Shown here in pieces: positions 47,283 to 55,620 of a DNA stretch of 64,000 nt; position 1 is the first letter of the stretch; every line of letters starts with the position of its first letter. The stretch comes from Chloroflexota bacterium (GTDB lineage: Bacteria > Chloroflexota > Anaerolineae > UBA4142), in contig JACRBM010000047.1 in the NCBI GenBank assembly GCA_016219275.1, positions 1-64,000 of the forward strand, read 5' to 3'. The translations under genes were made by a program, and so were the position numbers. Under the pieces are notes generated by a model that was given only the letters and a program-made list of their open reading frames with translations, was not told the origin of the DNA and ran no database searches.

Positions 47283-47790
47283 CGCCGAGTCGGGTGTGCG
47301 TCAAGTTTTTGGGTGGTAAAAAAACCTTGCGAAGGGCGAACGGCAATCATATTTGATTTGTCGTCAAAATCTTCGCAAGGTTGAGTGTTCCAAAATTTTG
47401 ACGGACACCCCGCCGAGCACAGCTTTTCAAAAGTCGCTTGACTCACTTGCCAACCTAACCCCCAACCCCCTTCCCTATAAGGGAAGGGGGCAGGGGGATG
47501 GGTCTGCAAATGACTTTTGAAAAACCGTGCCCCGCCGAGTCGGGTGTGCGTCAAGTTTTTGGGTGGTAAAAAAACCTTGCGAAGGGCGAACGGCAATCAT
47601 ATTTGATTTGTCGTCAAAATCTTCGCAAGGTTGAGTGTTCCAAAATTTTAACGGACGCCCCGCCGAGCACGGCTTTTCAAAAGTCGCTTGACTCACTTGC
47701 CAACCTAACCCCCAACCCCCTTCCCTATAAGGGAAGGGGGCAGGGGGATGGGTCTGCAAATGACTTTTGAAAAACCGCGCCCCGCCGAGT
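47283..47790. repeat. Tandem 250-bp repeat with GC-rich hairpin element
   Basis: Two near-identical copies (start 47,283 and 47,533) plus the first 10 bp of a third, in a 600-bp intergenic region. Each copy holds a CCTTGCGAAGG/CTTCGCAAGG inverted pair and a full hairpin element whose arms run from TTTTCAAAAGTC to GACTTTTGAAAA and include the C-rich/G-rich core. The hairpin core is the same as in the 121-bp tandem repeat at 1-260. No gene is present. Confidence 0.9.
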
Positions 47791-47797
47791 CGCCCGG

Positions 47798-47826
47798 TTG
47801 ACAGTCGTCTCGAAAACGGCTATTCT
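47798..47826 (+). promoter_or_regulatory. Promoter of mtaB
   Basis: TTGACA, 17-bp spacer, TATTCT, then only 8 bases to the ATG at 47,835. There is no ribosome binding site, so the transcript is probably leaderless. Confidence 0.8.
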
Positions 47827-47834
47827 ATCGCCCC

Positions 47835-49199
47835 ATGAAAGTTTATCTGAGCACGCTCGGCTGTAAATTAAACGAAAGCGAATTGGAAGCGTGGGCGCGC
47901 CGATTTGGCGCGGACGGATACGAGATCGTAGACGACGCGCGCGATGCGGACTTGTGCGTGGTCAACACGTGCGCGATCACGCACGTCGCCGCGCGCAAAT
48001 CGCGACAACTGGCGCGGCAAATGGCGCGCGCGAATCCGCACGCGCGCATCGTGCTGACCGGTTGTTACGCCGATGTGTCGCCTGATGAAGCGCAAGCATT
48101 GCCCAACGTCGCGCTTGTCGTGCCGAACGCGGACAAGGACAACCTCGTCTCGCGAATTGCGAATTCCGAATTAGGAATTGCACATTGCGCCCAGTCCGAG
48201 GATCCAAATTCGCAACCCTGGCACCGCCCGCCAGGGCAGGTGTTCGCAACTCGCAATTCGCAATTGAGAACGCGTGCCTTTGTAAAAATTCAAGATGGTT
48301 GCAACATGAGTTGCACGTACTGCATCATCCCGCTCGCGCGCGGCAAGGAACGCAGTCGCGCGCGCGATGAAATTGTCGCTGAAGTGCAATCGCTTGTGCG
48401 CGCAGGTTATCAGGAAATCATTTTGACCGGCGTGCAGATTTCCACCTATCGTAGCGCAAATTTCCAATTTGCGTTGCGCGATCTTGTCGCCGCGATTCTG
48501 GACGAAACGAATGTGCCGCGCTTGCGCCTCACGAGCATCGCACCCTGGGATTTGGACGACGCGTTGCTCGATGCGTGGCGCGATGCGCGGGTGTGCCGGC
48601 ATTTGCATCTATCGCTCCAAAGCGGGAGCGATGCGATTTTGCGCGCGATGCGGCGCCCGTACACGACCGCGCAATTCGCGCGTGCCGTTGAAATCGCGCG
48701 CGCGAAAATTCCAGAAGTTGGCATCACGACGGATGTGATCGTCGGTTTTCCCGGCGAAAGCGACGCCGAATTCGACGAATCGCTCAAGTTCGTCGAACAA
48801 ATGCAGTTCTCGCGCGTCCACGTCTTTCCGTATTCAATGCGCGAGGGTACGCCCGCCGCGACGATGTCGCACCAAGTCGCGGACGCAGCCAAGCAATCGC
48901 GAGTCCGGCAAATGCAAACGGTGGGCGACGCCAGCGCGTGCGCGTTCGCCGGGCGATTCGTCGGGCGCGTGATGCCGGTGTTGTGGGAGTCGGTGGACGG
49001 TGGACAATGGTCTGGGTACACGGACAACTATATTCGCGTGCTCGCGCCGAGTGATGCCGATCTTGCCAATCGAATCGTTTCCGTTCAACTCACCTCCATC
49101 ATGGATGACCACGTTCAAGGTATCTTCATTTCTGATACGAAAGCACCTAAAGATTCTCCGATTGGGTCTCCCCAAATCACCCACAATCGCATAGAATAA
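47835..49199 (+). CDS. mtaB: tRNA t6A37 methylthiotransferase (MtaB)
   Basis: A 454-residue radical-SAM methylthiotransferase. The UPF0004 domain shows STLGCKLNESE, VNTCAITHVAARKSR and LTGCYA (three Cys for one cluster). The radical SAM motif is CNMSCTYCIIPLARGKERSR. The C-terminal TRAM-like part ends in the Gly-rich region. It adds a methylthio group to t6A37 of tRNA. A block of about 40 residues (about 108-147, IANSELGIAHCAQSEDPNSQ-like) before the radical SAM domain is repeat-derived and kept in frame. Confidence 0.9.
   Translation: MKVYLSTLGCKLNESELEAWARRFGADGYEIVDDARDADLCVVNTCAITHVAARKSRQLARQMARANPHARIVLTGCYADVSPDEAQALPNVALVVPNADKDNLVSRIANSELGIAHCAQSEDPNSQPWHRPPGQVFATRNSQLRTRAFVKIQDGCNMSCTYCIIPLARGKERSRARDEIVAEVQSLVRAGYQEIILTGVQISTYRSANFQFALRDLVAAILDETNVPRLRLTSIAPWDLDDALLDAWRDARVCRHLHLSLQSGSDAILRAMRRPYTTAQFARAVEIARAKIPEVGITTDVIVGFPGESDAEFDESLKFVEQMQFSRVHVFPYSMREGTPAATMSHQVADAAKQSRVRQMQTVGDASACAFAGRFVGRVMPVLWESVDGGQWSGYTDNYIRVLAPSDADLANRIVSVQLTSIMDDHVQGIFISDTKAPKDSPIGSPQITHNRIE
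48150..48272. repeat. In-frame palindromic insertion in mtaB
   Basis: GCGAATTGCGAATTCCGAAT units on one arm; GCAACTCGCAATTCGCAATTG on the other; a CCCTGG/CCAGGG hairpin in the middle. The two arms are complementary. The element is about 123 bp, a multiple of 3, and carries no stop in the mtaB frame. Confidence 0.85.
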
Positions 49200-55552: not shown

Positions 55553-55620
55553 TCGCCAGAAGACAGTCGTCAGTAGACCGACATCCTATTGGCGACTGGC
55601 GACTGACGACTGACGACTGC
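55553..55620. repeat. GTCGTCAGTCGCC short-unit palindrome
   Basis: GTCGCCAGAAGACAGTCGTC on the left; GGCGACTGGCGACTGACGAC then TGACGACTGC on the right. It fills the gap between livK and livF. The same type is half of the insertion in pglE. Confidence 0.85.

Follow-up and report, generated by a model that had tools for sequence, protein, structure and literature searches.

A 27-bp REP-like palindrome, probably inserted in frame in the mtaB linker of an Anaerolineae bacterium

Within the 64,000-nt stretch of Chloroflexota DNA analyzed here (the window), an mtaB gene carries inverted arms and a hairpin inside its reading frame. How much of this sequence was inserted, by what route did it enter, and what does it add to the protein? 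We consider it probable that a 27-bp mobile palindrome resembling REPs has entered the gene precisely and in frame, landing within an older pair of heptamer tracts that occupy a permissive linker.

The mtaB linker and its 27-nt addition

The gene carrying the insertion, mtaB (47835–49199, + strand), encodes a 454-residue tRNA ms2t6A37 methylthiotransferase. In profile searches, the open reading frame matched TIGR01579 (MtaB) at 430 bits against a curated cut-off of 357, with UPF0004 at residues 2–95 and Radical_SAM at residues 151–320, and the invariant, cluster-binding cysteines of the family (C10, C46, C77, C156, C160, and C163) are all present. These results bear out an earlier note on this DNA, which had described an open mtaB frame with intact catalytic Cys and a palindrome between the methylthiotransferase N-terminal and radical SAM domains. 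The AlphaFold2 model (mean pLDDT 88.8) resembles MtaB and MiaB structures. Residues 114–143 have pLDDT < 50, so the inter-domain linker is predicted to be a disordered loop.

The same note proposed that one whole element of ~123 bp had been spliced in, adding 40 residues that might form a surface loop. Inverted arms do exist (48155–48177 and 48243–48265, 83% complementary), and the 123-nt region folds better than 200 of 200 shuffles (z −3.2), as expected if arms and hairpin had arrived together. Against a single arrival, no second full-length copy of a 143-nt query was found in this genome (107-contig draft searched); its left arm (parts 13–44) and its CCCTGG hairpin with the right arm (parts 68–121) match elsewhere in the genome, each at places of its own. 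The mtaB of the sister genus (L107, identical to L026 from contig JACRPR010000127; protein 77% identical) has a linker of 132 nt, versus 159 nt here, a difference of exactly 27 nt. When the 27-mer is omitted, the two 132-nt linkers align without a gap (89/132 identical), and the sister-genus linker has complementary arms of its own. The 27-nt mobile palindrome CCCTGGCACCGCCCGCCAGGGCAGGTG (48216–48242, + strand) is therefore a precise addition of codons 128–136, encoding PWHRPPGQV between A48215 and T48243; the peptide across the insert reads SEDPNSQPWHRPPGQVFATR. Since relatives that lack such arms have linkers whose lengths span that of the core-less linker, the net gain is 9 residues, and ~30 of the 40 claimed residues correspond to ancestral linker length. 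In the model, the nine added residues fall within the region predicted to be unstructured.

Around the 27-mer lie older repeat tracts and a native stretch. A left period-7 tract of AATTGCG type (48152–48182) lies outside the insertion and is complementary to a right tract, which is split into a portion 5′ of the insertion (48207–48215) and an AATTCGC-type portion 3′ of it (48243–48268) that holds the right arm of the inverted repeat; AATTCGCAA^TTCGC becomes continuous once the 27-mer is omitted. The heptamer units of the arms are AATTGCG/AATTCGC here versus AAATTTC/AAATCTG in the sister genus, yet the arms are complementary in both genera despite the change of unit (z −2.5 and −2.4). Between the tracts lies a central stretch (approximately 48183–48206) reading CAQSEDPN here, CSQFEDPN in the sister genus, CSQFEDVA in L029 and SSQWLDAD further out. 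Its residues C-Q-EDPN are native, being common to core-less relatives. The earlier note had held that the same residues in MtaB of relatives without the repeat would mark native sequence; this applies to CAQSEDPN/CSQFEDPN but not to PWHRPPGQV.

In other genera of the family, the same linker holds different repeat-like translations (SDQRSAISSQRSAISGQQSAVGG, IHPSSFILHPSL, and SGRRSVVGGRR), making it a recurrent site for repeats. Separately, MtaB of L029 (UBA4826) has a second in-frame repeat-like insert of ~36 residues (SHRVIASRPERSVAESKEAAKQSPSS...) after GVQISAY, inside the radical SAM domain, which its relatives lack.

A dispersed family with clean ends

Beyond mtaB, the genome holds 22 copies of the 27-mer, kept on inspection from 25 hits with up to two mismatches allowed. 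Exact matches to GCRCCGCMCGCNNNNGCAGGTG occur in 40 of 396 Anaerolineae genomes, with at most 34 copies in any one genome, whereas the reversed control matched almost nowhere; a few of these 40 genomes have unpaired stems and represent chance matches. The 129 copies collected include 124 with a paired stem, which give the consensus CMCTDGCRCCGCMCGCHAGKGCAGGTG. Judged by these sequences, the 27-mer is a dispersed and apparently mobile family, and in our sample of the phylum it is nearly confined to Anaerolineae. The evidence for mobility consists of comparisons between genera and between paralogues; no presence/absence polymorphism was seen within species. Rfam gave no match near gathering scores at the element. 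In the literature searched, which covered few subscription papers, we found neither the core letters nor any account of such repeats in Anaerolineae. The 27-mer also occurs on eight IMG/VR contigs classed as viral (L401–L408).

Empty sites define the ends of the insertion. Two are clean, and each reveals an exact 27-nt addition between A and T. The P-type ATPase gene reads GCGCACGAGA[CACTTGCACCGCACGCAAGTGCAGGTG]TGGGGCATGGCG here versus the empty site GCGCACGAGATGGGACACGG in a relative, and its protein reads MAHE-TLAPHASAG-VGHG versus MAHE-MGHG in four relatives. In the second case, IS200 tnpA paralogues from one genome (L261 and L282) differ by a single 27-nt gap at AA^T in an otherwise well-conserved alignment. 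A TMEM260-like protein (RHASR[TPALADGAR]VTHH versus RYASRITHH) and hypF also fit the empty-site pattern. Neither target duplication nor deletion is seen at the ATPase and tnpA sites. Repeats in direct orientation, such as TTCGCAA|core|TTCGCAA, could be taken for a target duplication; this reading was rejected, as they stem from the period-7 flanks and the empty sites have no duplication.

The flanks of the 124 copies are A^T in 67, T^T in 21, and A^A in 19. Long period-7 runs lie next to 43% of own copies and 17% of the full set, versus 1.5% of random A^T sites in this genome, and flank periods other than 7 are near zero. Perfect helices of at least 9 bp join the flanks of 20% of copies, versus 4% of controls. 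Further targets are palindromic repeats, such as CATTGCGAG...GCAATC and GGACGCGGATGAACGCGG. The 27-mer thus often sits within short repeats of other kinds, most of all heptamer tracts. In one other family (L241, L315, and L321), it lies within a longer related palindrome (CACTTGCGCCGCACTGCGTT^TGTTGCAGTGCAGGTG), nearly an element within an element.

The 27-mer can form two hairpins. Positions 1–7 pair with 15–21 (hairpin A), and positions 7–14 pair with 19–27, with a bulged A (hairpin B); the GKG segment is common to both, so they are mutually exclusive. Two-sided changes in both hairpins exceed those of 500 shuffles and of every slid version, the signal for B coming from a single pair. A pseudoknot of both stems was set aside by reasoning, as two nucleotides are too few to bridge a stem of 7 bp. 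Along the bottom strand, the order is CACC-TG-hairpin A, with CACC 2 nt from the stem and able to pair with the loop.

Nine of the 22 own copies are in frame in genes: hypF, GT87, TMEM260-like (two), mtaB, PLP decarboxylase, an NRPS adenylation domain, P-type ATPase, and PMT-like. Elsewhere, copies lie in IS200 tnpA (L261) and in seryl-tRNA synthetase (L247, 1213–2616, + strand), the latter with a nine-residue insert, TLAPHASAG, in the N-terminal arm. As read from the sequence, the 27-mer is nine codons long and has no stop codon in any of its frames; every insertion therefore leaves the host frame intact and lengthens the protein by nine residues. At A^T sites, insertion in phase NAT would yield the two Cys-containing peptides. 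Although 37.5% of A^T sites in coding sequence are in this phase, none of eight own insertions is (p 0.02). Scored by codons, the insertions of all genomes give 2 of 22 (p 0.003, against a control drawn from this genome only); L261 is a further Cys-phase case. Such avoidance of the Cys-coding phase suggests translation of the inserted peptide and selection on it.

Movement of the 27-mer and rival explanations

Our best guess for how the 27-mer moves is single-strand mobilization in trans: the element would travel as a folded single strand on which a DNA-processing enzyme acts in trans, perhaps one of the Y1/HUH transposases of IS200/REP type. This model fits the absence of duplicated target sequence, a hairpin whose 5′ tetranucleotide could pair with its loop, and the hairpin-rich targets. 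Copies would persist in genes because the surviving insertions lie in tolerant loops, and no benefit to MtaB from its nine residues is implied. All 12 core-bearing genomes that we searched encode Y1 transposases, which are of several kinds, and among 30 Y1 loci in these genomes we found no linkage to the 27-mer. One locus has copies nearby, though no flanking pair (L286), and one has a copy inside tnpA. That copy, in L261, had been considered as possible linkage because it adjoins a Y1 domain; it was rejected upon proving to be an insertion inside the tnpA. A GC-skew test, which had no power, showed no strand bias (8/12).

The main rival dispenses with a transposase altogether. Template switching, or microhomology-driven copying, between hairpin-forming repeats during replication (heptamer tracts, CATTGCGAG, and CGCGGA palindromes) would account for most copies lying within other short repeats, for heptamer arms that change in concert between genera, and for the absence of a linked transposase. 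It is weakened by clean insertions in the unique coding DNA of the P-type ATPase and tnpA, with constant ends and length, and we regard it as rather unlikely. Entry of the ~123-bp sequence at once, as a Rickettsia palindromic element (RPE)-like unit, is very improbable given the linker comparison above. A repeat misjoined during assembly could be suspected in a draft of 107 contigs; an error of exactly 27 nt that keeps the frame of nine genes here and recurs in unrelated assemblies strikes us as extremely improbable. Variation of the linker across all relatives leaves room for a native, fast-diverging sequence that resembles a repeat by chance, but the 27-mer recurs unchanged elsewhere in this genome and in others, and the reversed control pattern is nearly without match, reducing this prospect almost to nothing.

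Relation to known repeats and mobile elements

Several features recall REPs. The 27-mer is a palindrome within the 20–40 nt range, with a paired, covarying stem and many dispersed copies (22 in this genome). REPs likewise are 20–40 nt dispersed hairpins whose subfamilies show complementary stem changes and of which some copies are in frame in genes (PMC3733652, PMC6006769); intragenic REPs and REPs lodged inside other palindromes have been described (PMC3733652), and the REP plan places a tetranucleotide just 5′ of the hairpin (PMC6006769). By analogy, we infer that CACC-TG-hairpin A on the bottom strand may parallel this plan, with CACC replacing GTAG. Neither GTAG nor CGTC occurs on either strand of the consensus of 124 copies, and none of the 30 Y1 loci in 12 genomes offers a transposase (RAYT) gene flanked by copies. 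Because the tag test failed and transposase linkage is missing, we do not file the 27-mer as a REP. Also unlike REPs, it has an alternative second hairpin, ~40% of its own copies are in genes, and it targets heptamer repeats.

The comparison with RPEs, drawn in the earlier note, stands in part. Rickettsia elements in frame in genes are among the work cited in PMC3733652, and here too a palindromic mobile sequence is in frame in mtaB, as it is in all nine own genes that carry one and stay functional-looking. However, the 27-mer is only 27 nt (9 residues) versus longer elements, is nested in older heptamer tracts, and belongs to an Anaerolineae family, in another phylum. By analogy, it appears to work like an intragenic REP or a Rickettsia element.

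Like elements of the IS200/IS605 group, the 27-mer inserts without target duplication and has a hairpin whose foot is preceded by a short 5′ sequence, but 27 nt are too short for two element ends, and no fixed target tetranucleotide was seen beyond A^T. It is not a MITE, as empty sites lack the target-site duplication that accompanies terminal inverted repeats. Cyanobacterial STRRs are heptanucleotide repeats. The arms, though not the 27-mer, share this 7-nt periodicity, which strongly dominates the short tandem repeats of the genome (88 per Mb versus 0 in a shuffled control, over 0.8 Mb). Compared with the described heptanucleotide TAACTGA repeats (PMC4679880), the tracts here differ in being paired in inverted orientation within a gene and in providing the 27-mer with landing sites.

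A bolder reading, which we offer tentatively as possible though doubtful, is that the 27-mer represents a distinct minimal mobile DNA: 27 nt, nine stop-free codons, switchable hairpins, and clean A^T entry into repeats and enzyme genes via a hypothetical dedicated enzyme, steadily adding nine-residue loops to Anaerolineae proteins. The 27-mer would be among the smallest DNA elements with a clean, duplication-free insertion readable directly from empty sites. Because its length permits entry into enzyme genes without a frameshift, the 27-mer naturally supplies proteins with short insertions, and its copies record which loops tolerate nine extra residues. The mechanism is testable, as many copies have empty sites in relatives.

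Other repeats also mark this DNA. Heptamer tandem tracts of ~35 different units occur in 0.8 Mb of the genome, two of them in the window at 55600 and 56437. Just upstream of mtaB, at 47400–47800, the window has a ~250-bp direct duplication that contains a C/G-tract palindrome (CCCCCTTCCCTATAAGGGAAGGGGG) and a GCCGAGCACGGCTTTTCAAAAG unit.
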